Source: Aphrocallistes beatrix (taxonomy: Eukaryota; Porifera; Hexactinellida; Sceptrulophora; Aphrocallistidae). Taken from it: a stretch of 64,000 nucleotides of DNA. The stretch covers positions 3,615,148 through 3,679,147 of the forward strand of contig OY725499.1 of assembly GCA_963281255.1 (NCBI GenBank), read 5' to 3'. The position numbers and the translations under genes are program-made. Every line of letters begins with the position of its first letter. The stretch's first letter is position 1. The notes under the pieces were generated by a model, which saw only the letters and a list, made by a program, of their open reading frames with translations, ran no database searches and was not told where the DNA came from. Positions 1,879-44,386 of this stretch are shown in pieces.

Positions 1879-1994
1879 GCACACTTCGCTACAGATGTGT
1901 TGCAGTGTATTAGAGAACTTTACGTGTATGTATCATACAATACGTACAAACATAGTTCTCTAATACACTGCAACACATCTGTAGCGAAGTGTGC
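1879..1994. repeat. Perfect 41-bp palindrome at the gene 3' end
   Basis: Bases 1879-1919 and 1954-1994 are exact reverse complements around a 34-base loop. The right arm contains the last codons of the minus-strand gene, so its mRNA would end in a long hairpin. In arm B the corresponding hairpin (about 27646-27783) is imperfect. It could be a structured 3' RNA end or a fold-back maintained by arm-to-arm gene conversion. Confidence 0.85.
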
Positions 1995-2401
1995 AAGTCA
2001 TAAACGCGGTAAGCAGTGAAGAAGGCATCATGAGGATCTTTGTAGTTGGTAAGATTGATAGGAATATTGACTGCATTCCCGAGAACATCTTCACGTCGAG
2101 GAATCAGCTCATACACTTGGCAGAACTTCCTTCCTCTCTCATCTGTGAAGAGAAGTGTGTATCTAGCGAAGGAGTCAGCCCCCACACACACTATCTGATA
2201 GACAGATCCACGCTGTTGCATTGGTTCTGTTCCTCTGAACCAAACGCAGTTGGTTACCTTGTAGCCGCTAGGAATGTGTAATTCCGCAGCTGAGCCAATA
2301 GCAATATGTGCTGAAGATTTGTCTAACAATTCCATTCTTCGTATTGATATTATAATATTATTGACTATTATAGATGTATTATTTGATATTAAATGGTCCA
2401 T
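1910..2401 (-). CDS. Small divergent Ig-like protein, inverted copy A
   Basis: A 163-residue reading frame starts at ATG 2401. Residues 1-140 match the copy at 27239-27661 with about six substitutions. The core shows a beta-sandwich pattern like the other Ig-like proteins here: ELHIPSGYKV, then CVWFRG, then YQIVCVG and ARYTLLFTDERGR. No signal peptide or membrane helix is visible, so a cytosolic or nuclear protein is likely. The odd point is the end: where copy B stops (TAG), this copy has CAG and reads 23 residues into the arm of a perfect palindrome, stopping at 1910. The tail is therefore probably an accident of stop loss or arm conversion. The Ig-like assignment is inference from the pattern; the function is unknown. 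Confidence 0.6.
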   Translation of the reverse strand: MDHLISNNTSIIVNNIIISIRRMELLDKSSAHIAIGSAAELHIPSGYKVTNCVWFRGTEPMQQRGSVYQIVCVGADSFARYTLLFTDERGRKFCQVYELIPRREDVLGNAVNIPINLTNYKDPHDAFFTAYRVYDLHTSLQMCCSVLENYVCTYCMIHTRKVL

Positions 2402-2808
2402 TTGATTCCTATTTATACTATCTTTTGTCTTAATCCGAACTTATTATAAAAACGTCGATTTAAAACGCTTACACCTCAAGTGACAAGCATTATCCAACCA
2501 GCATGAGATCATAAACATTTTTTCTCAATTTAACTTAATTAATTAATGTATTCAATCTAATATGTATTTCTATGACCACATTCAGAGTGTTGTAAAGTTG
2601 GGGTCTGTGAAAACGTAGAACTCTGAATAAATTATATTTTTTGGTGCTCGGATCCAAGAGAGGAGAGTTCGGATTAGTGAGTAATGTACTTAAATCACAA
2701 AAGTAGTTTACTCTTGAGTTTTTTACATGTACCTACAGAAAAAAAACACTCGAATTTGTGCTTCATAATTTTGAATTGTAATGATCCAATTTTATGGTCA
2801 TTCATTAT

Positions 2809-4260
2809 TCAATGGGCTATTTGGTCATGCTTCAACTGCATTAGTTGTACGAGATAACCAAACGCCGTGTCGTAGTGATAGTTCCACATCTTAATTGGGA
2901 ACAAGGGATCCTGGTAGGTACCACCAGAGAGTTTGCGCCCGACATAGGTTTTCTCAAAGTATAGAACTAGACCAGTGGATTGGAGCATTGGAAGTTCCTG
3001 TACTACATCATCAAACACCTCGAGTACATCAAAGGGTGAAGCAAAGGCGAGTGCTGGCAATGGGAACGCTGAATCTGTCCTACGCCTGAGTTCGGAATCT
3101 GTCCTACGCCTGAGTTCAGAATCTGTCCTACGATTATTCCGAGTTCGGAATCTGTCCTACGCCTGAGTTTGGAATCTGTCCTACGATTATTCCGAGTTTT
3201 CCAGTGGGTTTTGTGGGTTTGTGTTTTCTTTTTGTGTGGGTTTGTGTGGGTTTTTGTGGGTATTCCCACTGATATCCTGTGGGAATGGGTTATGAAATTA
3301 TATTCCCACGGCAACCCTGACAGATTCCGAACTCGAAATAATCGTAGGACAGATTCCGAACTCAGGCGTAGGACAAATTCCGAACTCGAAATAATCGTAG
3401 GACAGATTCCGAACTCAGGTGTAGGACAGATTCCGAACTCGAAATAGTCGTAGGACAGATTCCGAACAGTTTGGTTGTAGGACAGATTCCGGAAATATCG
3501 TTGTACAGAATCAGGCGACTCCTGGCAACATGCGTAGGGCTAGTTCCTCATCTTGGTTGAAGCAGTTTGCAGTCCTTCAGTTTGTACTTTGCGCCAGATA
3601 TTATGTGTGAGGTGAAAGAAGCAGTACTTCACCTGTGTAGCAGGCCACACCTGCTGGAAACTGTTAATGGCAGCCTTCTCAAAGTCCATAAGCATCGAGA
3701 TGGCTGAGCATTAGGACAGAGTAACTGGATCTGTTGCCACATCCGTGTGTAGGTAGCTTGGGTTTTATTAGGTAGGAGGATGAACAGGCTAGGCAACAGA
3801 TGGCCATCCTTTAGGGGTTCCGTTCCTCCTCGGAGTGCATGCAACACATACACTTGGGCAAAGAGGTTAGGAGCTGTCTTAAAAGTACCATCAGCAAGCC
3901 AGCACTGGGATGCTTGCAACATATCCAGGTTACGCTGTGTACCAAAGATGAGAATTCTCTGCGGCTCCGGACCAGAGTCGTAGAGCAGGAATTGCTCTTC
4001 CTTCGCTGTCTGCTGGTACTCAGGAGGAAGGTTGAGCTCCTCAAGGGTAGTTGGTTGTATTGGAACAGCTAGCACTCGTTCCCTCTGACGCTATATCGTA
4101 CGCTTTAAACTGTCCAGCTTAGGCAGCTTAGCAGCCGTACCCTCAGATACCGTGAGGAGACTTTCCCCTACTACGCTGTGTGAACTATCCCGGGTTTCCT
4201 CTGCTTTCTTATTAATGCATATCTTAGCCTCACCACGACTAACCTCCTGTTAATCTGGTC
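2809..4260 (-). pseudogene. MULE-type transposase, duplication copy 1 (broken)
   Basis: A Mutator-like transposase is read leftward. The N-terminal part (about 4075-4260) continues through an in-frame TAG just after the motif LPKLDSLKRTI near 4090. The catalytic core at 3629-4075 contains WLADGTFKTAPNLFAQVYVL, where the aspartate is the first DDE residue, and LLPNKTQATYTRMWQQ. One base is missing after the residues PNAQPS (copy 2 has an extra G), so the second catalytic block MDFEKA lies in another frame. A palindromic element (about 3061-3512) then separates the C-terminal part at 2809-3060, which contains VLEVFDDVVQELP. Such enzymes cut and paste DNA transposons. At least two point lesions and one insertion make it inactive. 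Confidence 0.8.
3061..3512. mobile_element. Palindromic element with inverted tandem arrays inside the MULE gene
   Basis: The left half holds repeats of TTCGGAATCTGTCCTACG and the right half holds the same unit reversed (CGTAGGACAGATTCCGAA), around a T/G-rich centre. It separates two parts of the MULE transposase. Duplication copy 2 has an uninterrupted sequence at the matching point (about 7795-7812). The bases CTGGCAA flank both sides and may be the target duplication. Edges are approximate. Confidence 0.7.
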
Positions 4261-4606
4261 CATGGAGATGCTCATTGGTTCGTCTGACTATCTCCATTCC
4301 CTTCGTAAGAATCTGTCATGATTTTACAAACTATTCGAACCAACAAGCGTTTTGGACGAATTTTTAAATTTAATGCTATTATAAAATTAAACATATATAT
4401 GTAATTTATTTTATTATCTCCATAGTAATTAGCCAATCAAATTAGTAGCGAAATGTCGGTATCCGCAACCAACTAGTGTATGCCAGTTAAGACAATGGAC
4501 TTCAATCGGTATGTTAGGAATAGCCAAACTAATACAAATTGTCATCACATTTAAAAAGTGGTGAACAAAGTATTCACTTTCGTATTTATCAATTAAATTT
4601 CAAATA

Positions 4607-4752
4607 CAGTCGACTCCGCTTAATAGGGCCACTTTTGGCAGGAACGGAATAGTTCTCACGCATAGAAGCTAATACAAAATATTTTCGGTTAATAGGATTT
4701 TCCGCTTAATCGGACAAAGGTCCGATGTGACCCTATTAAGCGGAGTCGACTG
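4607..4752. mobile_element. pogo/Tigger-type MITE (CAGTCGACTCCG family)
   Basis: A 146-bp element has inverted ends reading CAGTCGACTCCGCTTAATAG and lies between TA dinucleotides. The same family is present at 45453-45640 and 46405-46593. Confidence 0.85.
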
Positions 4753-4812
4753 TAAAGCAAAAAATAAATTTTCTTCAGATAGAAATCTAAAAAATACGCT
4801 AGCTAGCTAGTA

Positions 4813-4935
4813 CAGTGGATGCCGGTTATAAGGACACCGTTGGGAACTGCATATATTCTCTTATAACCGGCATAAATTAATTGGGGTATATGTCACCGTT
4901 TTCTAGCAGAATGTTCTTATATCCGGCATGTACTG
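4813..4935. mobile_element. pogo/Tigger-type MITE (CAGTGGATGCCGG family), copy 1
   Basis: The inverted ends are CAGTGGATGCCGGTTATAAG and its near complement, with TA on both sides. The equivalent in duplication copy 2 is 9613-9739, so the insertion predates the duplication. Confidence 0.8.
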
Positions 4936-5468
4936 TATTTCAGAAGTTCCACAGCATCATCGAACTAAAAATAATATATTTCCTCTGAACTATTAATAGG
5001 CAAGTCACGTTTCACGTGATCTTAGCTTCTAGCTATTCAAATTTAATATGACAAATAATAGTTCAGAGTTCAGCACAGAATAACTGATAATTATTAAGCC
5101 AATGAAATACGATCTTGTGGAATGGCATGCGTAGTGATATGTGTACGTTTGATAATAAGACAAAGATCCAAACCTAAGCTGAGTAATCTGTATATCAGAA
5201 ATCAATCTACAGATGAATACCTATCGTAAACTGACCCAAACAATATTCAGGCTTAAAACAAATTTGAGTGTAAATTACGGTAATTTCCAGCCAACAATTA
5301 GCATGTCCTTAATATATTATGTCAGCATGATATAACCGAGTTAATTCAGCACAGGAATAGTACCGGAGTTCAAATGTAAAACTTATGAAGCAATATACGA
5401 TTATCATCGATGACAGACGAGAGTTACAGAGATGCATCAATTCAATTCTTCCAACCGAATTGTTATAA

Positions 5469-5687
5469 CAGTGTTTCCCACAGAAGTTTTCGAAAGCGCA
5501 GATTTAGCAACGTCGACGCTGCATGTATTCCTCGCTTAAACTCTCTACCTTACTCCATGATATGGAGCAACAGTTCAACGCTCTTTAACGCACTTTTGTC
5601 GCAGTTTGAAGTTTTTAATAAATATTGGTTTGGGGAAATATTAAGCGTGTCATTTAACACATTTAACGCGCTTTGCGGAAGACACTG
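5469..5687. mobile_element. hAT-like MITE (CAGTGTTTCCC ends)
   Basis: The left end is CAGTGTTTCCCACAGAAG and the right end is GCGGAAGACACTG. Related copies are at 6906-7598 (with nested insertions) and, truncated, near 10264 and 11490. The flanks (GTTATAAC against GTTACAAC) may be a diverged 8-bp target duplication. Confidence 0.65.
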
Positions 5688-5939
5688 GTTACAACTCATT
5701 AGGAACAAGGTCATAGCACCTGGTACGTATCCATTAGCTGTACTATCTTAGGTGTCTAAGGTGCATAGTGAGTCAGTGAAGACTCAATACTTGTTGGTAC
5801 TTCACAGCCACAAAAGAGTAGTGCGAGAATCTGATTCTTCACAGTAAAATGCCAATATTAACTAACCGTTGGATCTGATAAATACTTTAAAACACACCTT
5901 AGATAGATGTGTACATCTCACAGCATAAAGGGTTCTCAC

Positions 5940-6321
5940 ATCCAAAATTTGGTAGAAATCGGACTGTTAGATTTCGCAGGATTGCACATACGGAAATGGT
6001 ACAACGTATTTGCCATGAAGACATCTTGTTGCACTAAAACTTATTTTGCCATTCAAAATGGATTGCCACAGTACTACTAGTAATAATCCACATCAACCAA
6101 TTATAAATAAATCTAAATCGGACCATGAGCGAGAATGCGATGTTCAAAATAAAATAAATTCGTATGTTATAAAGTGACAGCTCACCTATCAAGCCTGAGA
6201 TGGAAATGAAAATATCTTTGGAGCTAGCGACCTGATCCAGGGTAATGAGGTCTGCACTCTTACTTCTGATCTTTTCCAATGGAGGTTTTTCCGTACCTCC
6301 TCCTGGTTGGTCAGCTGACAT
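5940..6321 (-). CDS. Two-exon gene of unknown function, 5' part, intact copy
   Basis: On the minus strand, ATG at 6321 opens a 45-codon exon (6186-6321) beginning MSADQPGGGTEK and ending ISISGLI, followed by a GTGAGC donor. After a 152-bp intron ending in TTTTAG, a second exon (5940-6033) continues in frame with QQDVFMANTLYHFRMCN and ends ...STKFW before a GTGAGA donor. A possible third exon just below 5860 (reading FSHYSFVAVKYQQ, then a stop) keeps the phase but is short. Frame continuity across two consensus junctions, plus the decay of exactly these sites in the duplicated copy (10360-10728), argues that this was a real gene. I do not recognise the family. The start resembles the beginning of a P-loop protein only loosely. 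Confidence 0.45.
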
Positions 6322-6389
6322 TACACAGCTAAGTAATATGCATACATAATCCACTACTTATTGAATGATGCGTCATTCTCAAAGTAACT

Positions 6390-6905
6390 AAGTTTTCGTT
6401 ATAGGCTCTGTAGGCATAGCCATAGCCCAGAGTTGCACGCGGGCCGAAATTTTGAACCGCGGCCCGCAAGAAGCCCGCATAAATATTTTTGGCCCGCTTT
6501 GTAAGTTACTAATTATAATCATAATAAGTAGACTACACTTAGGGAATCCTTTTATGGGAGTGAGTTTCTGCAAACACAAATAAGTGGAAACTAACAAAGT
6601 TCCATTTACGTAAGTATTCCTTAATTGGTACCTCGTGACAATTAAGAACATCGTCTCGGTTGTCATCGCGGGGAGTCCTGCCAAGATTTCCGGACCGCGG
6701 AGCACGCAAACTATTATATTCAGCCCGCGTGCAACTCTACTATAGGCTGGAGCACCTCCTGGATTCGAAGATGGGCCATAGAGGCGATACAAAGTTAGGG
6801 CTAAGCCCCATGGGCGTAACCAGGAAGTTCTGTAGGGGAACATAGCAACCAGCTGGGGGTCTGGGGGCGCTATAACCCCAGTGGGACGGAAGCTGACAAC
6901 ATTTG
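6390..6905. repeat. Dispersed GC-rich element, copy 1
   Basis: The sequence rich in GGCCCGC and the following stretch (GTGAGTTTCTGCAAACACAA; CGTCTCGGTTGTCATCGC) recur at about 10945-11480 in the duplication and at about 17145-17380. It has no credible frame. It is an interspersed repeat, probably a non-autonomous transposon, with ends I could not fix. Confidence 0.65.
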
Positions 6906-7598
6906 TAGTGTTTCCCACATGATTGGTCGAAAGCGCTCATTTAGTAACATCAACGATGCATTTCAGTACACCCTCGCTAATCCGAACAGCTCTGTACCAA
7001 TGAACTAAAAAAACGTTCGGATTAAAGAATTTGTTCCGATTAGTGGAATAACACTAATTCAATGGGGTTTTAACCAAGGGATTATCTAGGAGCGCAAGAC
7101 GCTCCTTTAGGCGTATGATTTTAAGCCGCAATGTGTTTAGGAGCGTAAAAATCCACAAAAATACCCAATTTACCCAATATTATAATGTTATTTAGCGATT
7201 TAGGCGTATGAAAATTTAGAAATTTCAGATTAGGAGCGTATTTCTGGAAGGCTGTATAATACCCTGGTTTTAACTATAATAAATTTGCATTGTTAGAATA
7301 TTTAGGATATTATTTAGTTACGATTGCTTTTTTAACGAGGATTCTCACTTATTGAAATATATAATATTATAAACGTCGATTCAAAGCATATTAGAGGCAA
7401 ATAAGATTATATGTTGGGTGTTCGGATTGTAAGAATGAAGCGTTCGGATTAGCGAGGGTGTACTGTATTCCTTTCTTAAACTCTTTACCTAGACTCCATG
7501 CTATGGAGTACCAGTTCAACGTGCTTTGAAGCAGTTTATATTATTTTGGTTCGGGAAATGTTAAGCGTGTTATTTAACGCTCTTTGCGGGAAACACTG
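6906..7598. mobile_element. Triple nest: hAT-like MITE with Tigger-like MITE with a second hAT-like MITE
   Basis: The outer element (6906 to GGGAAACACTG at 7598) is the same family as 5469-5687. Inside it, 6964-7465 is a pogo/Tigger-type MITE with ends CAGTACACCCTCGCTAATCC. Inside that, 7075-7266 is a 192-bp element with ends CAAGGGATTAT and ATAATACCCTG and an exact 8-bp duplication GTTTTAAC at 7067-7074 and 7267-7274. Duplication copy 2 lacks the innermost element and shows one GTTTTAAC there. Confidence 0.85.
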
Positions 7599-7785
7599 CC
7601 CATGGGTCATCGACCCTTTTGCGGATTAAGGGGAACCTGAGCCATTCTCAGGTGGGTACCTGGGAGATATTAAAACAATATTGCAAGCAAGCGTATTAAT
7701 AATAGAATTAGAATTCTAGTTTATATCCACCAATAATTTCAGAAATAATTTAAAACATTAGAAGAGAAATAATTTAAAACAAAAA
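7494..7785. other. Spacer between the two duplication copies
   Basis: It holds the right end of the outer hAT-like element (to 7598) and then unique AT-rich DNA with no reading frame of note. Confidence 0.5.
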
Positions 7786-8815: not shown

Positions 8816-8911
8816 TCGTCTGACTATGTCCATACCCTTCGTAAGAATCTGTCATGATTTTACAAACTTTTCGAACCAACAAGCGTTTTGGACGAATTTT
8901 AAAATTTAATG

Positions 8912-9293
8912 CATAGCCAACTCTAATAATGCCTCACAGTAAAATAACCAAGGATGCAGTAATAGCCGAATGAATTAATACACGATTAGCTTAAAATCGT
9001 TAATCATGCAGGATAGGCATCAAGAATGTATTACCAACATATATAAACATGGCATCAAAGTACATATATCCGTTGTCAAAATTTCGATTAGTCATCATAT
9101 CATTGCGCAACAGGTCATTTTAAGCAAGATTTTGGAAATTTTCTAAGCTGTTTTAAGCTGGTAATACATTCTTAATGCCTATTCTGCATGGTTAACGATT
9201 TTAGGCTAATCGTGTATTAATCCATTCGGCTACTACTTCATCCCTAGTCCATAATTTCCAGTCTACTGTGAGGCATTATTAGAGTAGGCTATG
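8912..9293. mobile_element. MITE with CATAGCC termini
   Basis: A 382-bp insertion has ends CATAGCCAACTCTAATAATG and its near complement (ATTATTAGAGTAGGCTATG) and a 7-bp duplication TTTAATG on both sides. It is absent from copy 1. Partial relatives appear near 13740-13860 and 31330-31440. Confidence 0.85.
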
Positions 9294-9612
9294 TTTAATG
9301 CTATTATTAAATTAAACATATATAATTTATTTTATCATCTCCATAATAATTAGTCAATCAAATTAGTAGCACAATGTGGCATCTGTAACCAACTAGTTAG
9401 TGTATGGCAGTTAAGACAATGGACTTCAATCGGTATGTTAGGAATAGCCAAACTAATACAAATCGTCCTCACATTTAAAAAGTGGTAAACAAAGCATTAA
9501 CTTTCGTATTTATCAATTAAATTTCAAATAATTACATTAGTAAAAGCTCGTTAGCAAAAAATAAATTTTCTTCAGATAGAAATCTAAAAAATAAGCTAGC
9601 TACCTACTAGTA

Positions 9613-10728: not shown

Positions 10729-10840
10729 TCACACAGCTAAGTAATATGCATACATAATCCACTACTTATTGAATGATGCGTCATTCTCACATTTTATTTA
10801 TTTCTAATTTCACAGAAGTATTCATGGTCATTTAAGGTAT

Positions 10841-12325: not shown

Positions 12326-13123
12326 CTAAATTAATCTGTAGATCTTTATCTCTGCTCCCGTATTGGAGGAACCAACAGCATTAAAGGCATAAACAGTGTA
12401 GTATCCATCATTTCCTAAATTTGCATCGTTAATGATGAGGGTGTTCCAAATACATCCCTCTAGCTTCATCCCATCTTTGTACCATTGATATTGAGTGGCA
12501 TTCTGGAAATGGGCAATGAGCGTAATTCTCGATCCTTGATAGTACGCTCCTCCTTCAGGGCCAGTCACTAGTGTGGGCAGCTGGGGTTGGGGTTGAGGTT
12601 GATAGTAAGTCTCTTGCTGAGGTTGGGGTTGAGGTTGATAGTAAGTCTCTTGCTGGGGTTGGGATTGAGGTTGATAGTAAGTCTCTTGCTGGGGTTGAGG
12701 TTGGGGTTGGGGTTGGGGTTGGGGTTGGAGGGGGAAAGTTCTCTGGAACTGCATCGGAGGCTGTTGATCAGCGGGAATCGTCTTTCTCAGGCTAGGTTGC
12801 TTCAGTTCAGCCCAGTTAGTCAACACGGTGTTGTTGGTTGCATCTTTAACTTCAAGTCGATAAAAACCAAAGTCCTGCTCAGTAATCGGCCCAATAGTAA
12901 GATTGCTCTTACACATGCGCGGAATCTGCGACCCTGTCTTATCGTACCATTGATACTTTAGACTATTCCCCTCTACCCTCGCAGAGAAGTTTATGTACGC
13001 TCCGAGTCTCCCTGTTGCGTCAATGGGCTCAGCTAGTATTTTTATCTCCTTCACATAATCCGAAACTATAGGTCCAAAGTATTCTTGTGAAGGCTTGGAG
13101 TCAATCCAGTCACTCCTGTCCAT
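12326..13123 (-). CDS. Leaderless protein with two Ig-like domains joined by a Pro/Gln repeat linker
   Basis: An intact 265-residue frame runs from ATG 13123 to the stop at 12326. Residues 28-107 form the first Ig-like domain, with YQWYDKTG in the C strand and the tail block DFGFYRLEVKD...TNWAEL. Residues 131-180 are a low-complexity linker of repeats (QPQPQPQQETYY, three units). Residues 186-263 form a second Ig-like domain with YQWYKDG and GNDGYYTVYAF. Neither domain has the usual strand B and strand F cysteines, and the N-terminus is acidic and polar with no signal peptide. Together these suggest an intracellular Ig protein, as in titin-type or MALT1-type domains. The WAEL block is shared with 18235-18775 and 44030-44386. 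Partner and role are unknown. Confidence 0.8.
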   Translation of the reverse strand: MDRSDWIDSKPSQEYFGPIVSDYVKEIKILAEPIDATGRLGAYINFSARVEGNSLKYQWYDKTGSQIPRMCKSNLTIGPITEQDFGFYRLEVKDATNNTVLTNWAELKQPSLRKTIPADQQPPMQFQRTFPLQPQPQPQPQPQPQQETYYQPQSQPQQETYYQPQPQPQQETYYQPQPQPQLPTLVTGPEGGAYYQGSRITLIAHFQNATQYQWYKDGMKLEGCIWNTLIINDANLGNDGYYTVYAFNAVGSSNTGAEIKIYRLI

Positions 13124-15385
13124 TCAAAAAGTGTAGAAATGTAATCTTGTCTTAATAATCTAAATATAAAAATAAAATTTATATGTCATTCAGATATACG
13201 TTATCATCATAAAATTGTGCAATATGCATATATATATATTTTCTCCGTTTGATGTTATATCTCGAAAACCATAATAGCTAGATATTAAATTTATTTTATA
13301 CGCAATGGTTGCTTTCCATTCGTTTGATTTTCGAGGTATGGGATAATTTTTCTAATATGAACCATAAAATATATTATGAACTAATAGAAAGTGATCTATT
13401 GCGTATCAAATCAAATCTGAATGTCTTGCTATTACGGTTTTCAAGATATAGTTATCCTCAAATGGCGAAAATACATTTTCAGCAGCGCAGGATTTCTCAA
13501 AAGCGTAATGCTTAAATAAATGGGTGACTTAAATTAGTCACAAAACCGCCAAATTTTTTCACATGCATATTGCATAATAATATGATGACAATTTTGACAA
13601 TGGATAATTAATTAATTAATTAATTAGGTTAACATTCGGTAAAATTGGTCGATTTTGGAAATTTCCAAAAAAGCCTTGTTTTGGGCAAAGAGCTTGTTAA
13701 ACTTTCTTATTCTCACCTTGATAACGGATTCAGGTACTCTGATATGCGGTTTATATATGCTGGTAATACATTTCTAAGGTCTATCATACGTACATAGGAA
13801 ACAATTTCATGTTGTGGAATCCCGTAACTCTACTATTTCATCCATGGTCCAAAATGATAAAGTATACCATCGCCTTAATGTCTATAAATACTCGTATTTC
13901 CCAAGGATAATCGGACTACATCGAAAATATCAATCCTATGTATTTAGTAATAATAAGTAAGTGGGCATTTACTGGCTGTATGGTTTTAAGGTGCGTATAT
14001 TACACTGGAGAATTCTGGTATTTTAGACGGGATAAGTTAATTGCTGCGTTTCAGACATTTTGTACGGAGAAGGATTGTGGACTGCATATGTATTACACGA
14101 ATAATGCCTGTGCCCACAACATTGAGTTATCCAGTAAATCATAGACATAAATAGGGCAATTTTAAGCGGCGCACATCCACCCAGAATAGTCCAGCCTATA
14201 ATACAACAAAATAGACGCACAATCCTGCTAAAAGCAAGCCATCGGCCTCTAATTTCCACAAGAAGCGCCATCGCGTTAGGATTAGTGAATATGCATACCT
14301 TAGCCCAACAGCTATGCTAATTTAAGACTTGATGATGCTATCATCTGCATATTTGATGCACAACGCCACAAACTGGAATAAGACTACAGGGAGCAGCTGT
14401 GGAATGCTGATAAAGTAGCAACTAACTGTTTTTAAATTCATTTTCTCATAGTATGCATACTTTTATGGTATTAAGTATATTAAATTTTTTATGTGGACTT
14501 TCTAACCATCATCTGCAACCTCAATATTTTAATCGAAATTCCTCTTCATCCATTTTTTACTTAATTAAATATAAGTTTGAGCATGATTCTACCAATTTAA
14601 TTAGCCATTTGAAAGACGATACAATTTTAGATATCTACATCCATTAATAATAATGGGACTTTGCCCTTATTAGCTAATCATAGAAAGTAGATTTAATATG
14701 TGGTTACTATATAGGCACCTAGAAAGTTATAATGACTCTTTAATACTTGTATAAAACAATTGTGAATCTGAGAGGCTCAAATCTCGATCTAAAGCTATTT
14801 ATTATAATTTTTAAAAAATTATATTAATTTATTCTTTGGTAATGCTTTTTATCACATGAAGCATCTGTTTTACCAAAATTAGGTTTAAACAAGGATGGTA
14901 ATAGGAGTGAAACTATTGACATTGAATCTGCGCTTAACACATGCATATTATCACAAAATTATATATCAATATTTAGTAGAATAGCCCTGGACTCCACTTT
15001 AGTCAAGTTTACGTTATGAGTCATATATCTGTACATTTTATTAATTTAGATACAAAAATGCGTCTGAATTCAGTTTGGGCTTGGACTACTCTTGTATTTA
15101 AACCCGAGTCGGACTAGGAATTTTGCTAACTCATTTCCGGTTAAGTCATGTTGGGCCCTAAAAGTGTGGGTTTATTCTATAAATAGAATTGACTCCAAGG
15201 CTAAATCAGGATTTATTAAACTTTGAAGGAGCACTTTGAAGGAAGTCTCGGCAGCACTTTGAAGGAAGTCCTCGGTACTACTAATTATATTACGTATCTG
15301 TAGAGTGACAGAACATTTCACGCATTAGATATACTATATCAAAAATCAAAAGATAAGTCTAGCATAATCCATTTCTTAAAAAAAA
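13124..15385. other. Gene-poor AT-rich stretch
   Basis: There is no supported gene. A block around 14095-14150 resembles 15395-15450 (shared core GCCCACAA.ATTGAGTT), so these are diverged copies of one interspersed element. An AATT run lies at 13609-13625. A relative of the 8912-9293 element is suggested near 13740-13860. Confidence 0.45.
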
Positions 15386-18234: not shown

Positions 18235-18775
18235 GCTCAATTTGCCAGTGATGATAAAATCGTCGTTTTTAAAGTACACGTATCTGCATCTGGCCTCAAC
18301 CTCTCCTATCAGTGGTACCGACAAGATGGTCTGGCTATCCTCGGAGATTGTAAGCCTTTCTTGACCATTGGACCGCTGAGGAGAGGAGATTTCGGGTTCT
18401 ACCACGTGAGAATACAAGACTGCTTTGGGGCCCATGTCCTCTCGAGTTGGGTGGAATTGTCCAACTCTGCCTCGATCGCACACGCACCTCCCGTCTTCAA
18501 GATTAACCCCTTCCCCGCCCGTGGCAGACCTGGAGAGTATGCGTACTTGTTCGCACTGGCTACAGGCGTGAATGTGGAGTACCAGTGGTACGATGAGAAG
18601 GGGGTAGCCATTCCTGGCGCCACCGAGAAGAGTTTAACTTTTGAACCAATCCTGAGTCACCATGACTTCGGATGTGTAGCGAGGATGAGTTTGGTCGTTA
18701 GACCTTGCTGACTGGGTCGAGTTAGCAGACGGAGATACTGCTATGCAAATAATCTGTTAATTTTTTGTTAAAATT
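18235..18775 (+). pseudogene. Two-domain Ig-like gene remnant
   Basis: A frame from about 18235 to 18711 encodes two Ig-like domains without a start codon. The first has YQWYRQDG and FLTIGPLRRGDFGFYHVRI followed by SSWVELSN. The second has YQWYDEKGVAIPGATEKS and HHDFG. The expected close of domain 2 (LADWVELADGD) is present at 18706-18760, but in another frame after a one-base change, and the frame is closed upstream by TAA at 18232. It is therefore 5' truncated and frameshifted. Like the 12326-13123 protein, it lacks the canonical strand F cysteine. It is a relic of the local Ig-like family unless an upstream exon and a sequencing error are involved. Confidence 0.7.
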
Positions 18776-25980: not shown

Positions 25981-26249
25981 CATAGAACTAAGACAGTTTT
26001 TTAAAAGTGTTAAGGCCATGGCCTAACAACCGCACCGCTTCCTACAGCCATGAGACACACCAACTACATTGGATCTCAAAAGTGACACTAAAATCATTAG
26101 ATTGCGACACAAGGAAGAATCCACCACTTTCGGGCGCCGGGAGCGTCCGGACCACTAGAATATTTTGTGTGACATTTGCGTCTTCTACTATACCAGCTTA
26201 GTTGGTGCGTCTATCTCATAATTAAGATAATGAAATAAAAGCAAGCAAA

Positions 26250-26440
26250 AGAAACTCAACTCTTTTGAGGCTATTTTGAGAACAGCTGGGAGACATGTAC
26301 AATTAGCAGTCTGGTATTCCTTCACGCGGTAAAATCCCGAATCTTCTCTCCTCAGTAGCGAGATAGTCAAGAATGGCTTACAGCTCAGATAGCCAGGACA
26401 TCTAGTCGGTACGTCTAAGCAAGGATTAGTAACTCTAGTT
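26250..26440 (-). pseudogene. Ig-like domain fragment
   Basis: Read leftward, a short frame contains CKPFLTISLLRREDSGFYRV, which aligns with CKPFLTIGPLRRGDFGFYHV of the remnant at 18235-18775. There is no start, no YQWY strand and no closing WAEL or WVEL block, so only the middle of one domain survives. It is a relic of the same family, in the opposite orientation to 18235. Confidence 0.5.
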
Positions 26441-26927
26441 ATGAGTAAATAATTAGAAATTAAAACTGAGATATTATAAGTTTTACATTATTAATTCTGA
26501 GCATTATAGATATAGAACTTATCTAGAAGTGAGTATCAACTCTAATCAGTGAAAATTGCTTCTGCTCGCAAGTGAGATTTAGCCGTTGCTAACAGGGAAG
26601 AGAGAGCAGGGCTTATCTAGGCGTTTCTATGTGTCTACAGGCGCGTAACTTCAAAACAAGGTGAACCTATCCACGCTTTTGTCAAAACTTGTATATGTCA
26701 CTATATTAAGTACATAGGCTAGGCGCGCGAAAATGATGAAAAAGATGTTTCAGGTGAATCTAAAATAGTTGGATGAACCCTGGAGGAGAGGCTATCGGCT
26801 GGTCTCGATAAACTTGTCCACTAGTCCTGGGAAGAGCTGTAGACTTCTGTCAGAATTTACTGAATTTCTTCCTAAAAACTAAAAAAAAAACACATGCCCT
26901 GTCAGGGCAGCTGGCTGTGCCAGTTTA

Positions 26928-27846
26928 CCAAAAGCTCGAGAGTAAACTACTTTTGTGATTTAAGTACAGTACTCACTAATCTCTTGGACCCGAACACCAA
27001 AAATATAATTTATTCAGAGTTCTACGTTTTCACAGATCCCAACTTTACAACACTCTGAATGTGGTCATAGAAATACATATTAGATTGAATACATCAATTA
27101 ATTAAGTTAAATTGAGAAAAAATGTTTATGATCTCATGCTGGTTGGATAATGCTTGTCACTTGAGGTGTAAGCGTTTTAAATCGACGTTTTTATAATAAG
27201 TTCGGATTAAGACAAAAGATAGTATAAATAGGAATCAAATGGACCATTTAATATCAAATAATACATCTATAATAGTCAATAATATTATAATATCAATACG
27301 AAGAATGGAATTGTTAGACAAATCTTCAGCACATATTGCTATTGGCTCAGCTGTGGAATTACACATTCCTAGCGGCTACAAGGTAACCAACTGCGTTTGG
27401 TTCAGAGGAACAGAACCAATGCAACAGCGTAGACCTGTCTATCAGATAGTGTGTGTGGGGGTTGACTCCTTCGCTAGATACACACTTCTCTTCACAGATG
27501 AGAGAGGTAGGAAGTTCTGCCAAGTGTATGAACTGATTCCTCGACGTGAAGATGTTCTCGGGAATGCAGTCAATGTTCCTATCGCTCTTACCAACTACAA
27601 AGATCCTCATGATGCCTTCTTCACTGCTTACCGCGTTTATGACTTGCACACTTCGCTATAGATGTTGCAGTGTACTAGCGAACTATGTGTGTCGCGTACT
27701 CCAGATCTTGGGTGTACGTATTGTGTACACACGTAACATAAAGTTCATTAATACACTGAAACATTTATAGCGAAGTGTGTGCAAATAATTAATTGAATTT
27801 TTAAATGGTTTCATTATCTTGATAGTTATGGGATCATTTCAATGAT
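26928..27846. repeat. Inverted-duplication arm B
   Basis: Reverse complement of 1797-2722. It contains the second copy of the small Ig-like gene, its upstream DNA and an imperfect version of the 3' hairpin. Confidence 0.9.
27239..27661 (+). CDS. Small divergent Ig-like protein, inverted copy B
   Basis: An intact 140-residue frame begins MDHLISNNTSI and ends ...YDLHTSL with TAG. It matches copy A (1910-2401) at about 134 of 140 positions; the differences include GSAVEL against GSAAEL and VPIALT against IPINLT. The beta-strand pattern CVWFRG ... YQIVCVG ... ARYTLLFTDERGR suggests a single Ig-like or similar beta-sandwich domain. No signal peptide or membrane helix is present. The upstream DNA shared with copy A for about 310 bp presumably includes its promoter, but no TATA box was assigned. 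The stop here is likely ancestral. Function unknown. Confidence 0.65.
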   Translation: MDHLISNNTSIIVNNIIISIRRMELLDKSSAHIAIGSAVELHIPSGYKVTNCVWFRGTEPMQQRRPVYQIVCVGVDSFARYTLLFTDERGRKFCQVYELIPRREDVLGNAVNVPIALTNYKDPHDAFFTAYRVYDLHTSL

Positions 27847-29925: not shown

Positions 29926-30702
29926 TCATCGCTTCTGTACCATGATAACGAAAATGAGCATACCAATACAGACAATAGCGACCAAATGAAATAGCGTGCT
30001 AGTCCCCACACACAGAGAAGTAACCCTGAAGAACTCGTACACGTACTTTACTCCTACTTCGTACATCCTGTCCACACATCCAGATCCATGCACGTGAATT
30101 AGATCTTCTGTATTACAGTCCGTACTGTTGCCAAGGAGCAAACAGCAACTTTTAGGTGTTGGTAAATTTCTCTTTGCATAGTCGGCTGTCCCATTTACCC
30201 CACAACATCTTAGCAACTGGTGAAGCACGTCAGTTTTCGCTGTGCTCTGATTTGAATGGAAGTACATCGCTTCGAACTTGACAGTATATCTCTCAACATA
30301 GGCTTCATATGTTAACTTCTCAGTGAGTGTATATCCGTATGATCCTCCTATCAGTTGTAATGCGATTATGACCAATAGCAAATGAACTGTTAAGCATAGG
30401 ATGAAAAGACTCATTACTTTAATTCGTTTTTTATACGCAAAAATCGCCAGGCATCCTCCAATCAAATTCAACACGCAGACAGTTAATAGTATCACTCCGC
30501 TAATTACAGTGGTGAGGTACAGCTTGCGGAAATGATGTGCGTGAATAGGAGATGAGAGTTGGAATCGACTGAGAAAATTTCTGGTCGCCTCTTCGAATAC
30601 TGTCATATAACCTCCGACCCCAATCAGAGAAAATCCAATTAGAAATCCCAATACGCTCCCAACGGAGCAGATAATGATCAGTACATAGCGTAGAGTGTTC
30701 AT
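29926..30702 (-). CDS. Tetraspanin
   Basis: An intact 258-residue frame starts at ATG 30702. Four hydrophobic segments lie at about residues 7-31, 63-88, 96-119 and 228-254. The large extracellular loop (about 120-226) carries the tetraspanin signature CCG at 166-168, a second CC at 186-187, and C196 and C209, giving the six to seven cysteines expected of the family. N-glycosylation sites NQS, NGT and NST lie in this loop. Tetraspanins organise membrane microdomains and partner with integrins and other receptors. The gene is intronless here, which is less common for the family. No close neighbour is co-oriented, and the subfamily cannot be told from sequence alone. Confidence 0.9.
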   Translation of the reverse strand: MNTLRYVLIIICSVGSVLGFLIGFSLIGVGGYMTVFEEATRNFLSRFQLSSPIHAHHFRKLYLTTVISGVILLTVCVLNLIGGCLAIFAYKKRIKVMSLFILCLTVHLLLVIIALQLIGGSYGYTLTEKLTYEAYVERYTVKFEAMYFHSNQSTAKTDVLHQLLRCCGVNGTADYAKRNLPTPKSCCLLLGNSTDCNTEDLIHVHGSGCVDRMYEVGVKYVYEFFRVTSLCVGTSTLFHLVAIVCIGMLIFVIMVQKR

Positions 30703-32169: not shown

Positions 32170-32889
32170 ATGGATCTTATTGAATATGAGTCTATTTTAA
32201 CATATCTTACATCAGACCAGTATCCTCCCGGTTCCACTAAAGATCAAAAGAGACATCTCCACAGAAAAGCTTCGAAATCTAGCGAGATCGAAGGAAAACT
32301 AGTGAAGCAATGTTGAAATCAAAATTTGATTGTCATTAAAACGGCTGAGGTAGAGGAAATACTGAAAGAAATACACGATAATTCGGGCCACCAAAACGCT
32401 CGCTATACCTATAACATTGGGAAGGATCGCTACAATTGGCCTAGCATGGTAAAAGATATCGATGTCTATGTGAAAGCTTGCGAACGCTGCATACGAAATC
32501 AACCATCCCTGAAAAGTCCTACTTCTCCTCTCCAACCTCTTCCTGTCATCACAAAAGTGTGGTTCAGAGTTGGTATGGATTTGACTGGTCCACTAATCGA
32601 ATCAAACGGATTCAAATATATTTTGTCGGTGATCGACCATTTTACGAGATGGATAGAAACCAGACCTCTTCGTTCAAAAGAAGCACCAGAGGTGGCTCGA
32701 GGTCTATTTTCTATCTATTGTAGACAAGGAGCACCAGTTCAGATCATTAGCGACAACGGAACTGAGTTTACGAATAAATTGCACAAATCATTACACGAAT
32801 CTTATAATTGTAAATTAATACTCTCAACCCTATACCATCCTGAAACGAACGGGCTGGATTCGTCACATAAATCTCTAAAGCATAAATAG
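32170..32889 (+). pseudogene. Retroelement-type integrase (broken)
   Basis: From ATG 32170 a frame of about 48 codons is interrupted by TGA at 32314-32316 and then continues for 187 codons to 32889. It has the zinc-binding region (H near IHDNSGHQNARYTYN and the pair CERC) followed by an integrase core: MDLTGPLI with the first aspartate, ISDNGTEF with the second, and YHPETNGLDSSHKSL where the third catalytic residue, a glutamate in active enzymes, is replaced by serine. Such integrases come from Ty3/Gypsy-like or related elements and insert DNA copies. With a nonsense codon, the missing glutamate and an abrupt end, it is inactive. No LTR was found, so it may instead be a host-derived integrase-like gene that died. 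Confidence 0.8.
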
Positions 32890-32941
32890 AAAATCCCAGG
32901 GGCAACCGTGTAATTCAATAAAAAATGTAATACATATGATA

Positions 32942-39081: not shown

Positions 39082-39501
39082 CTATTCATCAATCTGAGCT
39101 GAGTACGGATGAGGGAGCTGTAGAGACTGGGGTTGCAAGAGAGATGGATTGAAAGGTTGGATCTGTCGCGGGAGTGAATCTCTGTTCTGTCTCGCTGGCT
39201 GATACGGTGCGATCCGAAGTGGATGTAGTCTCTCTGGATGTGGTCTCTCAAGACCAAACACTTCGTGATTGAGCATTCCGTTTACGTCATAGTAGAATGC
39301 TTCGTACTTTCCGAAATGGGTTTCCAGAATGAGAGGGAGATCTAGGATTGGACTTCGTCGGGATTCTACCCAATTCCCGTTCAAGTACCAGTCACACCTG
39401 TTAGTGGAGATGGAGCCCTGGGCTTTAAACACGATTGACTCTTCGGGTGATTTGAACGATATAGGATGGTTCCTGTATACTGTGTAAAGTATGGTAGACA
39501 T
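39082..39501 (-). CDS. Small leaderless protein with one Ig-like domain and a Pro/Gln-rich tail
   Basis: An intact 139-residue frame runs from ATG 39501 to TAG 39082. Residues about 5-90 fit a divergent Ig-like domain: SIVFKAQGSI, CDWYLNGNW in the C-strand position and FGKYEAFYYDVNG near strand F. Residues about 95-139 are rich in proline, glutamine, leucine and histidine (LLQPQSLQLPHP), recalling the linker of the 12326-13123 protein. There is no signal peptide or membrane segment. The next gene to the right, the NLR remnant at 40115, is divergently oriented, but about 600 bp apart. I infer membership of the local Ig-like family. The function is unknown. Confidence 0.62.
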   Translation of the reverse strand: MSTILYTVYRNHPISFKSPEESIVFKAQGSISTNRCDWYLNGNWVESRRSPILDLPLILETHFGKYEAFYYDVNGMLNHEVFGLERPHPERLHPLRIAPYQPARQNRDSLPRQIQPFNPSLLQPQSLQLPHPYSAQIDE

Positions 39502-40114
39502 TTTTCAAGTGTGTGAATTTATATTTAGAATTCTTTAACCGTGAAATTTTATTTCTACACGTATTTATACTAGTAAGTCTGAATGTGAATGTTTAGTGAG
39601 TACTTATGCTTACTGTAATCTACTATAACAAGATGCTACTATATCAACAAAATGATAGATAAATATACCCAGAAACTATCAATATAAACATTTTGGCCTA
39701 AATTTAATATTTGAACTTTTATTTGTCCGTTGCTATGGTTTAGTAGTTTTCAAGAGATTTTTCTGGAATTGTTTTTCATTGGCATCTGTAGAGTATATTT
39801 TGTGTAGAGAAATTGAGCTTTCAAGAAATGAGCTTTCAAGGTGGTGGTGGTGAGTAGGGCCACGGAGAGGGGCCGCTGGTGCATAGGGGTCTATAAACAG
39901 GTATTTCGTCACAATGAGCAATGGAACACTTTATTGAGTACATCTCTAAATTACCAAAATTTTCTGTTTTTACTAATTTTATTTGAGTTTGTGCCATGAT
40001 TTGATACGATACTAGAAGAGATGTACCTAAATAATAATTGAATATTTTACTCAACCCAACTTTTCGTGTTCAAGTTTGTTCTACTTTTTAGATGTCTGCC
40101 CTTTCTCATCTTAA
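39502..40114. other. Spacer between the Ig-like gene and the NLR remnant
   Basis: No supported gene. It probably holds the promoter of the Ig-like gene and, near 40124, an acceptor AG before the NLR death-fold exon. Confidence 0.4.
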
Positions 40115-41788
40115 AAAATCTCAGATGCACTGAGCAGACACGACATCCATCAACTACACGATTCTCTATCAGTGCCAGATGGTCTCTGTGACCGAGACAG
40201 TGAAGGAGCAATTTTTCTTACATCCCTGAAAAAATGGAACGAGTTCGATATTTTCCACCAATCACTGTTAGCCATCCGACCAGATTTAGTAGGCGTAGCG
40301 CTTAACATTAGTGGTTGTGTGTTAATGTGCCTGGAATGCATTCCGATCAACTATTAACAGTGAAAGGTCTTGTCCAACTTCTACAATGGGGAATATCAAT
40401 TGGAAAAAACGGAGAGACCTGTACTTCAAGAAACAATTCGATGATGACGAAATACTGAAGCGATTCACTCGTCTCCTCGACAGATACGATGAGATGAAGC
40501 AACTGTCACTAATCTCAGTGAACGCATCTCTGTTTGCTGTCCTCCTGAAAAGTGAAGACGGTGCTCGCATCCACACCCTGACAAAGCTGTACTATGAACT
40601 AACTCGGTACCTGATACGACGACAACTGACACGAATGCTACTGGAAGAATTGTCGAAAGTGAGCGAACTCTCCGAATTGGATAGCAACGTTTTAGAGTGT
40701 CTCCACTCAATCGGGTTTATCGCGTACCAGGGCGTGGCCTTTAGGGAGATGATCTCTGACAAAAAGATACCGTTGCGAGTTGGTAGGGTGTTAAAGTCGA
40801 GTGGGTGTCTGGGTCTAGTTCAGGAATATGTGAAAGTGGGCAAAATGGGTATTATCACAAAAGTATGGTCATTTACTCATTCGACAATTCAAGAGTTCAT
40901 TGGTGCCATCTGGCTGAAGAGCTGCAGTTGGCGAGATCAGTGTCTGTCTGTTCGGTTTATCGTGCATACGAACGACGTTTTCTCAGTGTTCCGTATGGTA
41001 GTGAGATTTTTGTGTGGATTGTTATCCGACGAATCAATGAATGTGTTTTTCCTCCTCTACAAACATGTGACACCTCGCACTGTTCCCGTCAACCATCTTC
41101 CTGAGTGTGTTCAACTCAAATATGAGGACCATGATTTATTCCAATACACAGACTGGAAGGAATTTACTGAGAAGTTCCTTCAGCTGAGTGCAATGTTGTC
41201 TGAATCTGATTGCGATTCTATTCCTAATTTCTTCCAAGTGTGTAGACGTTTCCTTCCTGACTCAGTCTACTTCTACATTGAGAGTGCAGTGGCTCCTAAC
41301 GAGTGGATCTGTTTTCTCGAATCACTGCCACTTCTTGAACACATCCACCTCATCCATGTGGATTCTCGCTACGTCACTCCTGAACTGTCTCGATGAATTT
41401 CTCAGCTGCTTGCAGTCCTGTACAAACTTAGTAAAGTTGGAGCTAGAGTTTTCTCTCATACGTGTTGGTGACGTTACTCTCTGGTATTCGGCAGTTCACA
41501 GTCTCACCTCTCTGATATATTTGTATTTCTCACATATCTCTATTCATGATTCAGGAATGTTGAGTCTATGCAGAGGTCTCCTCTCCCATCCTACCATTAG
41601 ACAGTTAGACGTATCCGAATGTAAACTGAGTTCCTATTCTTGTAAACCTCTCACCCCCAAACCTAATTCCTACCCTCACACAACTGAAGTTCCTATGCGT
41701 GACTGAACTCTCCGAACCAGAAACTGAACCAGTCGAACTGCTCAAGCTAACAGCTGATCAGTATGCTATAGAGCATGAACTATGTTAA
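40115..41788 (+). pseudogene. NLR-type receptor, decayed (death-fold, NACHT remainder, LRR)
   Basis: Three parts of a NOD-like receptor lie in order. At about 40125-40357 a death-fold domain contains SLKKWNEFDIFHQSLLAIRP, then runs to a stop. From about 40326 to 41396 a second frame gives the distal NACHT and winged-helix region: LISVNASLFAVLL, LTKLYYELTRYLIRRQL and the typical FTHSTIQEFIGAIWL. From about 41390 leucine-rich repeats continue in a third frame (NLVKLELEFSLIRVGDV; RQLDVSECKLSS), and after another shift near 41660 a short tail to TAA 41786. The P-loop and Walker B half of NACHT is absent, with no room for it between the two frames. NLRs sense intracellular danger and oligomerise through NACHT; this copy could not. 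It is a pseudogene with a deletion and at least two frameshifts. Confidence 0.78.
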
Positions 41789-41945
41789 GTACTTAGGGCA
41801 TTCAAAAAGTTCTAATCCCATATCTGTATCACAAATGATAATGAAAATAGGATATTTTCGATATGTCCATTGTATTCCTTAGGGGATCAGCTTCCAAATT
41901 GTATATTGGTTTATCCAGGGAAATTTCAAGAGGGGTTGGTAAGTA

Positions 41946-42652
41946 CAGTCGACTCTCGTTAACACGTACACCAAGGGACCGTGGAGATTTGTACTCCTTA
42001 TCCGGAGTACGTATTAACCGAAGTACGTACGTACATAGCCACATTTGTCCAAAATACTTAATATACATAGTGATAACTACGTGAGAGTATGAAATTGTAC
42101 TTGTTAAATAGAGAACTCATTATCCGTGTTCGTATTATCCGTGTTCGTATTAACCGTGTTCGTATTATCCGTGTTCGTATTAACCGTGTTCGTATTATCC
42201 GTGTTCGTATTAACCGTGTTCGTATTATCCGTGTTCGTATTATCCGTGTTCGTATTAACCGTGTTCGTATTATCCGTGTTCGTATTAACCGTGTTCTTAT
42301 TATCCGTGTTCGTATTATCCGTGTTCGTATTATCTGTGTTCGTATTAACCGTGTTCGTATTATCTGTGTTCGTATTAACCGTGTTCGTATTATCCGTGTT
42401 CGTATTATCTGTGTTCGTATTAACCGTGTTCGTATTATCCGTGTTCGTATTAACCGATGTATTTAGTATTGAAAACGCACTGAAGGGGACCCACAAATCG
42501 TACTTATTATCCGATATTTCGTCTTATCCGTGTTCGTGTTAACCGGAGTTCGTTTGTATATATTTTGCCATAGATTAGGTTGGGGAATCAAAACTTGTAC
42601 TTCTTATCCGATTGTACTCCTTATCCGTGTTCGTATTAACGAGAGTCGACTG
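41946..42652. mobile_element. pogo/Tigger-type MITE with an expanded 15-bp array
   Basis: A 707-bp element has ends CAGTCGACTCTCGTTAACAC and complement, flanked by TA. Bases 42121-42455 are a tandem array of about 22 units of 15 bp (GTGTTCGTATTATCC and the TAACC variant). The array is a local expansion of the element's own subterminal motif, not a gene. Confidence 0.9.
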
Positions 42653-43160
42653 TATGTAATACTCGTAGTATCAAGTTTGTTCGTTTCTTACAAGAGGCGT
42701 AAAACAATGAATTTTTCTTAATTGTCTGTAAATCACTTCTACCAATAGACAAGTTTACACCACATTACGTTCCACTATCTTTAATCGTTTAGGAGTTTAT
42801 GAAATCATCAAATTTTAAGTTTCTTATATTTTTTGCTCTTGTTTTTTATCAATTGTAAATAAAGTCGAAACGGTTTTTTCTTACTATTTCTTTCAAGGTT
42901 CAAACTGTAAGAAAAAACCGATGGAAATTAATATAGATTTGGAATATTTTACACCAGAAATATTCTGAAAAAGTTAGTGCCCAATAATTTTAAGTCATCT
43001 CCCAAATTTTTCAAAAAATAGTGTGAGGACACATATATTCCTGTTGTCAAGATCGATGCCATATGTATTCTGATTAAACATCGTTATTCAACGCTTCAAA
43101 ATATAATTATTTCGGATAGTTATACTACAGTGCACTGCTGAATAACCAAATCTGATTTTA
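42653..43160. other. AT-rich stretch without a gene
   Basis: A small inverted pair, AAACGGTTTTTTCTTAC and GTAAGAAAAAACCGAT, lies at about 42868-42922 and may be a relic of a further MITE (compare 58265-58453). Confidence 0.45.
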
Positions 43161-43162
43161 TA

Positions 43163-43687
43163 TAGTACTGTTGCGTAGATCCGTGAGATTCTTATACACA
43201 TAACCATGGATGGCTTTGTAGCGTAGAATTCTGAGATTATCCGTAGAATCGTGAGATTTGTTTCACTTACTCAAACGACCTTGTGGTTCAACCGGTTTCA
43301 TCATAACTTGATAACTATCGCCACTAAATAGTGTCACGCGACACATGTTGATAGTACTCGACACAATTTAATGGCACACGACACAATTTACTTGGTAAAA
43401 CCCCATATGGACCATGGATGAATTTTATTTTGCATTTATGGTCCATATGGGGATTTATCATAGTAAATTGTGTCGCGTGCCATCAAATTGTATCACGTGC
43501 CACAATTTGGTGGTGGTAGTTATCAAGTTACAATAAAACCAATTGAACCATAAGGCGATTTGAGGAAGCGAAACAAAATCTCACGATTCTACGGATAATC
43601 TCAGAATTCTACGCTACAAAACCATCCATGGTTATGTGTATAAGAATCTCATGGATCTACGATCTCACGGATCTACGCAACAATACT
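43163..43687. mobile_element. Large foldback element
   Basis: The ends GTTGCGTAGATCCGTGAGAT and their complement are followed by long inverted arms including CATAACCATGGATGG and CGTAGAATTCTGAGATTATC. The centre is a second palindrome, CCATATGGACCATGGA. No transposase. A clean target duplication could not be fixed (AGTACT against AATACT). Confidence 0.78.
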
Positions 43688-43811
43688 TAAGAAATGGGTG
43701 GCATCCAGAATATAAACAGTTCTACACTTTTAATAAAATAATGATTGTAGGATTTCATTTAAGCTCCTCAAATCAAATCCATAAATTCGAAAATTGGGGG
43801 GGGGGGGTCAC
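43688..43811. other. Short spacer with a G-tract
   Basis: A run of 11 G at about 43797-43807 may be a weak point for sequencing or replication. Confidence 0.5.
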
Positions 43812-44386
43812 CTAACATCCTGCACCACTGTTAAGTGAGCGACATTCTAATCTTCGTGAATATGCTGAATATGCCTTCTGGTTGTATACATCCGGAAGAA
43901 ATTTCTTGCAATGATCTGGACCGGGACCGTTGGTCCTTTTCCGTTTCAGGCTGGACCGCGGTTTGGTCAGGAACATTTCAACTCCTCCTTGCTTGCTGTC
44001 ATTCCCCTGGGTCTGAGGTGTCAGTTGTTCTAGTTGATGTTGAGGCAGATATTCTGTGTGTATCTTTCTCTTCTCTTGCACGGGAGAGGCTGTGCTTTCT
44101 TAAGTGCTGCCCATCTTGTAAACACAGCTTGACCAGTCAGTTCATCTCTAATTTCTAGTCGATATAAAGCGAAATCTTCTTCTTTGATCGGTCCAATTAT
44201 GATACTTCTCTTACACTGACGTGGTATCCTACCGTACTTATTATACCATTGATACTTTGGCTTGTTCGCTTTTACTTTTGTTGAAAATTTGATGTATGAG
44301 CCTATTTTCCCAATTCTGTCATTCGGTTCTGCTATAATTATATCAGGAGCTGTCGACTGTATAATAATATCATCCGTATGTACCAT
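43812..44386 (-). CDS. Ig-like protein, 118 residues, with a second frame beyond
   Basis: ATG at 44386 opens 118 codons to the stop at 44030. Residues about 15-95 form one Ig-like domain close to domain 1 of the 12326-13123 protein: IGSYIKFSTKVKANKPKYQW, then IIIGPIKEEDFALYRLEIRD and FTRWAALKKAQP. No cysteines at the canonical strand B and F sites, and no signal peptide. An overlapping frame (stop at 43812) continues with LPQHQLEQLTPQTQGN and a basic stretch, resembling the Gln/Pro linker of the relative. So either a frameshift has cut a longer protein or the short form is normal. The first 14 codons and the upstream DNA are duplicated at 53866-53906. Confidence 0.65.

Follow-up and report, generated by a model that had tools for sequence, protein, structure and literature searches.

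What would an animal do with immunoglobulin (Ig) domains made as small proteins that have no leader and no membrane anchor? The question is raised by a 64,000-nucleotide stretch of Aphrocallistes beatrix DNA (C13:3615148-3679147, hereafter the window, in a genome of 100.5 megabases [Mb] in 28 contigs), in which a first-pass annotation had described seven Ig-like loci or relics. One of them, at 12326-13123 on the minus strand, is an intact single-exon gene for a protein of 265 residues that consists of a short N-terminus, a first Ig domain (Ig1), a proline/glutamine (Pro/Gln) linker with YY repeats, a second Ig domain (Ig2), and a stop codon. From comparisons of its sequence with its many paralogues and with solved proteins, we suggest, at a probability of roughly 0.4, that the whole family to which this gene belongs encodes free-standing Ig pairs that work in the cytosol like the Ig1-Ig2 docking module of MALT1.

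Scores above the curated Pfam cut-offs place the 12326 protein in the Ig superfamily on sequence grounds. Two Ig domains were found (I-set E 5e-8 and 33.3 bits, cut-off 23.7; Ig_3 32.5 bits, cut-off 30), and neither a death domain nor a caspase-like (C14) domain was detected by Pfam in this protein. Ig1 (residues 26-109; 12797-13048, minus strand) carries YQWY, DFGFYRL, and W-x-E-L blocks and scored 126.1 bits against the family profile, and Ig2 (residues 183-262; 12338-12577, minus strand) scored 119.8 bits. The linker between them (residues 110-182) was read from the sequence and placed by calculation from residue numbers at 12578-12796 on the minus strand. A TATA-like box lies 60 nucleotides (nt) upstream of the ATG (13177-13183, minus strand), with further ones at -111 to -115 and at -177. 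The same layout recurs across the family, whose proteins are ~190-290 residues long; a short N-terminus, some 7 to 40 residues in length, is followed by Ig1, a linker that varies, Ig2, and a stop, which in 24 two-domain genes falls a few residues past Ig2. With frames that end after Ig2 and genes that are single exons, the annotated picture of small stand-alone proteins was borne out.

By searching the genome at the protein level with each domain of the 12326 protein, we obtained 45 Ig1 matches and 29 Ig2 matches, which were merged into loci by contig, strand, and distance. This gave 40 loci, spread over six contigs (25 on C13, 6 on C9, 5 on C1, 2 on C3, and 1 each on C18 and C4), a lower bound because only the best candidates were scored by the search; the weakest single matches (C1:515279 and C4:5640863) may be other Ig genes. 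Both Ig1 and Ig2 matches occur at 28 of the 40 loci, two Ig1-type matches at six, and a single match at six. All but one of the 25 C13 loci fall between 3.57 and 4.33 Mb, within 0.76 Mb around the window. The duplicating cluster proposed at first pass therefore exists, as part of a family that is larger and more dispersed than had been described. In a midpoint-rooted tree of the 24 two-domain proteins, in which several long branches were flagged, the six C9 genes split from the other 18 with 98/96 support. Three copies are truncated (L012, L025, and L026), and a double-Ig1 subfamily includes two intact genes elsewhere on C13, L032 and L037, the latter with a Pfam Ig_3 score of 32.6 against the cut-off of 30. 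A bacterial or viral origin was rejected: in pattern searches of limited reach, none of 20 pattern matches in viral contigs and none of 58 in prokaryote contigs (searched with one protein as query) was confirmed as a relative.

Within Ig1 of the main family, the QW, D-x-G-x-Y, and W-x-E-L blocks proved real, as Q, W, D, G, Y, and W show no variation across 14/14 and 20/20 rows and W59, D84, G86, and Y88 are found in all of 20 two-domain members. In Ig2 of the same 20, W214 and G240 are universal, residue 242 is Tyr in 16 and Phe in 4, and the Asp position is mostly Asn (16/20). A strand-C Trp and a strand-F D-x-G-x-Y are hallmarks of the Ig superfamily, and the aligned sequences display both. 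The canonical strand B and strand F cysteines occur in none of the 20 members in either domain, in agreement with the first-pass annotation; the double-Ig1 copies L032 and L037, which are not part of the 20, differ in that a Cys occupies the strand-F position of their second domain. These two cysteines are usual but not universal in the superfamily, and the bond between them is often missing from Ig domains of the cytosol. A non-canonical cysteine is located at a similar place in both domains (C71 in 14/20 and C224 in 17/20).

Several tests indicate that these loci are genuine genes. Promoter and hydropathy tests covered 29 of 31 fetched loci (L009-L038 and L052), with L017 and L038 dropped because they have no Met before Ig1, which makes the promoter result conditional on a start codon. 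In 28 of the 29, a TATAWAW box was present between -170 and -40 relative to the first in-frame Met. After dinucleotide shuffling, the box turned up in 5.1 of 29 on average and in at most 10, and in windows farther upstream it turned up in 4 and 5 of 29. Control genes (17 caspase-like genes and 7 from the window) had the box in 8/24 cases, with some first Met codons possibly in inner exons. Coding insertions and deletions in eight paralogue pairs were in frame in 10/10 cases vs. 6/43 in the 150-nt flanks. The ratio of nonsynonymous to synonymous divergence (dN/dS) over the whole frame was 0.19-0.60 in the 37 of 276 pairs among the 24 two-domain genes that had dS < 0.9, pairs that are not independent of each other. 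In those 37 pairs, values were at most 0.48 for Ig1 and below 1 for Ig2, and the N-terminus and linker reached or passed 1 in some. No stop codon interrupts any of the 45 Ig1 matches, and 27 of the 29 Ig2 matches are likewise stop-free. By these sequence-based measures, the family consists of TATA-type genes that code for protein in one exon and are held by purifying selection, and it also contains relics. Other upstream motifs, counted in 24 genes vs. 48 control windows, were sites like the interferon-stimulated response element (1 vs. 0), the heat-shock element (1 vs. 0), and AP-1 (0 vs. 2), and CCAAT (6 vs. 17). Hexamers like the cAMP response element were seen in 5/24 family promoters and 2/48 control windows.

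Most animal Ig proteins act outside cells, and the family could in principle be secreted or membrane-bound, with a leader or anchor in unseen exons or an unconventional exit route. As the first-pass annotation had claimed, no leader or membrane segment was found by hydropathy in the 29 proteins, to which a dedicated predictor was not applied. Mean hydropathy over 19-residue windows peaked at 1.5 vs. 2.8 in the window's tetraspanin, our control, and over 9 residues within the first 40 it peaked at 2.24 vs. 3.0. Upstream leader exons, the alternative that the annotation itself had raised, are argued against by the TATA position and by frame conservation from ATG to stop; because the TATA-like box is so near the ATG, a leader exon and an intron would hardly fit between them. 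The missing canonical disulfide also speaks against an extracellular role. An unconventional exit route is still compatible with these observations, and overall we consider a secreted or membrane location improbable.

What, then, do the domains resemble? Among solved proteins, Ig1 is most like MALT1 Ig1, as shown by a profile search in which its top PDB match was MALT1 Ig1-Ig2 (3k0w, E 1e-13), with MALT1 Ig1 aligned through the strand-G W-x-x-L. A fold search agrees on a low-confidence model: Foldseek ranked 3k0w second overall and first among animal proteins, with titin and twitchin also among the best. The Ig fold assigned at first pass is thus supported by Pfam and profiles, together with this low-confidence structure model. 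The Ig2 profile matched 3k0w at 1.8e-13, but many other Ig chains, titin among the best, rank higher. Titin is a long-chain protein with cytosolic Ig domains. These matches, in which the intracellular I-set domains of titin and twitchin are common for both the fold and the Ig2 profile, could indicate a cytoskeletal structural or scaffold role like that of small titin- or palladin-type Ig proteins. However, the family's members are short and stand alone, Ig1 points first to MALT1, and truncated copies and clustered duplication would fit a scaffold poorly, and we regard this role as unlikely. MALT1 itself has a death domain, a protease, and a third Ig domain, all of which the family lacks. The family further differs from MALT1 in having no B/F cysteines (20/20), in being a single-exon multigene family, and in its long variable linker between the two Ig domains.

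The genome also holds a MALT1-like paracaspase gene. Among its 58 caspase-domain matches, some of which are parts of one gene, locus L087 (C14:748748-752377) reads through as a single open frame of 893 residues or more, ordered as a death-fold region, Ig, and a caspase-like C14 domain. The best PDB matches of the C14 domain are MALT1, and all four PDB matches of a 104-residue piece near the start are MALT1 death-domain chains (E 0.0017-0.0044); the Pfam Death model stayed under its cut-off in the start region. The first Ig of L087 scored 20.8 bits against family profile A1. By this order of domains, L087 is of type 1 paracaspase make-up, and it is at most a possible source of the stand-alone family. 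The C-terminal Ig of MALT1 (PF18703) had no match in the genome, nor in any control genome, so this result does not amount to absence. Another caspase gene, L059, has a CARD. This gene, L087, and the tetraspanin of the window point to an animal host. According to PMC5978004, sponges, placozoans, and ctenophores have type 2 paracaspases only, a statement to which L087 would be an exception if the host is a sponge. Caspase-domain genes are clustered at C17:338779-388861 and occur elsewhere, some with open frames of about 950 to 1973 residues, L059 among these.

The likeness to MALT1 suggests how the family might work. According to PMC11996864, human MALT1 Ig1-Ig2 alone binds BCL10 with a dissociation constant of 29 nM in a groove between the domains, residues at the Ig1-Ig2 junction are required, and MALT1 recruits TRAF6. 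We read the family as one of Ig-pair proteins that lack the common disulfide and would stay in the cytosol, every gene being one exon behind a TATA-like promoter of its own. By analogy with MALT1, the free Ig pairs may dock there to signalling partners of the CARD or death-fold type and could serve as adaptors or, having no effector domain, as competing decoys. Their candidate context would include the MALT1-like paracaspase, the CARD-caspase, and the window's TRAF-type zinc finger, RING/NHL protein, and weakly NLR-like frame. Three observations weigh against a docking role of this kind. NF-kB-like sites are lacking upstream (1 of 24 genes vs. 1 of 48 control windows; 1 vs. 3 with relaxed matching), and Ig2 is generic, with many Ig chains outscoring MALT1. 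In addition, PMC5978004 describes the BCL10 stretch bound by the MALT1 Ig domains as vertebrate-only, yet it also reports that sea-anemone Bcl10 activates human MALT1.

Exchange among paralogues may have shaped these Ig pairs. We compared L010, L012, L013, L014, and L016 in windows of 90 columns and found a mosaic. Their upstream flanks are mostly 26-57% alike (L014-L016 higher), and Ig1 is 69-99% alike between pairs, with L010-L012 the closest. The linker is 93-100% alike in all of the five that possess it, and 98-100% in its core; in the four with Ig2, likeness then drops to 59-92% towards the stop codon, beyond which only L014-L016 are still similar in the 3′ flank. All six pairs of L010, L013, L014, and L016 repeat this pattern at synonymous sites, with a divergence of 0.57-1.41 for Ig1, 0.06-0.19 for Ig2, and 0.00-0.06 for the linker. 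The simplest reading of the mosaic is gene conversion or unequal exchange at the linker. Ig1 domains that have for the most part diverged are in this way attached to a shared middle, the converted linker and adjacent Ig2 sequence, plausibly a way to diversify binding. On a fuller but doubtful account, a MALT1-type Ig pair gave rise to a free, TATA-driven, intronless family whose halves are swapped by linker gene conversion, and the diversified set of intracellular Ig proteins so produced would tune or sense within CARD/paracaspase immune signalling of an early-branching animal.

Mosaic exchange in a large duplicating family would also suit cytosolic pattern recognition. In that case the variable surfaces of the Ig domains would themselves contact molecules of microbes or viruses, much as an antibody does but within the cell, and the conserved parts would relay this to a partner. 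Eight of the ten residues 249-258 at the end of Ig2 are variable, with an entropy of 2.6-3.4 bits; in some pairs dN/dS reaches or passes 1 in the linker or N-terminus; and neighbouring genes have TRAF-, RING/NHL-, and weakly NLR-like domains. Still, dN/dS was below 1 for the whole frame, Ig1, and Ig2 in each of the 37 pairs, and ligand binding is conjecture, leaving direct recognition a rather unlikely function.

The other loci of the window relate to this family to differing degrees. Paralogue-built profiles were run with HMMER on the window's six frames, and the reversed window, used as a control, gave zero matches at E up to 5. Four of the seven loci were matched, at 12329-13123 (minus strand), 18235-18708 (plus), 44033-44395 (minus), and as a relic within 26191-26487 (minus), and no HMMER match to the family profiles was found at 1910, 27239, or 39082. 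The shared blocks, which had been attributed to the readable domains, can be made out only in 12326, 18235, and 44030, with a piece in 26250 and none in 1910, 27239, or 39082. Locus 18235-18708 is a relic of the double-Ig1 subfamily with two Ig1-type domains (79.6 and 39.8 bits to Ig1). Locus 26250 keeps a short Ig1 relic of ~22 residues (26320-26385, minus strand; profile positions 45-66; 16.8 bits, E 4e-4). The gene at 44030-44386 (minus strand) is the truncated copy L025, which kept Ig1 and lost Ig2, and has TATA-like boxes at 44440 and 44442.

The three unmatched loci encode single-domain proteins. The 1910 gene (1910-2335, minus strand), weakly linked to Ig1, has a second copy at 27305-27661 (plus strand; TATA-like box at 27223) and a relative on C1, L089. 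Its start is likely the Met at 2335, instead of 2401 as first annotated, because a TATA-like box at 2417 is 82 nt upstream of the former but just 16 nt from the latter. From the supported Met, the two copies encode 119 residues that are 95% alike, with seven nonsynonymous and two synonymous changes (a ratio per site, pN/pS, of about 1). Distant open-frame relatives on C1 and C4 have 129 and 127 residues at 35% and 33% identity, and some relatives contain stops. An alignment of this pair with L089 gave an hhalign probability of 36.6 with the Ig1 profile (100 column shuffles: maximum 34.8, 95th percentile 1.6) and 0.9 with Ig2. The protein at 39082-39501 (minus strand; TATA-like box at 39569) has a Pro-rich tail and is weakly linked to Ig2, with hhalign values of 20.5 for Ig2 (150 shuffles: maximum 1.9) and 0.3 for Ig1. 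Five more copies at 86-91% identity bring its family to six places (86-100%), one with a stop. TATA-like boxes precede the start codon at -82 in the 1910/27239 family and at -68 in the 39082 family. Pfam had no match to 1910 and, for 39082, none to an Ig family, and the structure model of 1910 (predicted local distance difference test score 46.7) was too weak for a fold search. Judging from these profile comparisons, all three are probably Ig-like. The set of seven thus holds as one intact gene and three relics or truncated copies of the family, with the other three weakly linked to it.

Such remains could suggest that the family consists mostly of dead copies with no role. The relics at 18235 and 26250, the truncated copies 44030 (L025), L012, and L026, the pN/pS of about 1 between 1910 and 27239, and the stops in some of their relatives would all be expected. 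However, purifying selection, in-frame indels, and retained promoters across the main family make such wholesale decay very improbable.

Elsewhere in the window, we identified a TRAF-type zinc finger (49794-50456, minus strand), an NHL protein with a RING-like start (55656-57443, plus), a tetraspanin (29926-30702, minus), BBIP10 (57519-57833, plus), and a retroelement integrase fragment (H2C2 and rve; 32326-32889, plus). A frame at 40386-41396 (plus) had a weak NLRC4_HD2 match under the cut-off (E 0.0015) and is perhaps the end of an NLR-type gene; the stretch 39700-41396, read through stops (as X), gave no Pfam match. A repetitive segment at 42089-42542 is open in frames on both strands.

The RIG-I-like receptor family is intracellular. 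Cytosolic Ig domains are already known from Ig-type members of that family (PMC8998645) and from MALT1 (PMC11996864). In the lophotrochozoan Ig-grafted receptors, Ig is fused to a helicase sensor (PMC8998645), whereas in our family it stands alone. Sponge Ig-TIR receptors (PMC6208332 and PMC12909245) likewise show Ig in immune proteins of early-branching animals; their Ig is extracellular and their TIR intracellular, whereas our tests found no leader, anchor, or TIR in the family. A Dysidea avara gene with Ig and CARD, raised 1 h after exposure to microbial molecules (PMC6208332), links Ig to the death fold in a sponge. The present family has no CARD and was compared with that gene by description only. 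No stand-alone leaderless Ig-pair family appeared among the matches listed from the open-licence literature on intracellular or leaderless Ig, paracaspase evolution, and MALT1 Ig. Ig domains are mostly regarded as extracellular recognition modules. If our interpretation is true, innate immunity would here put the fold to an unusual use, in a large cytosolic Ig-pair family that is under purifying selection, has a promoter type of its own, and exchanges sequence as a mosaic. Such a family would also inform ideas of what MALT1's Ig part does independently of its protease.

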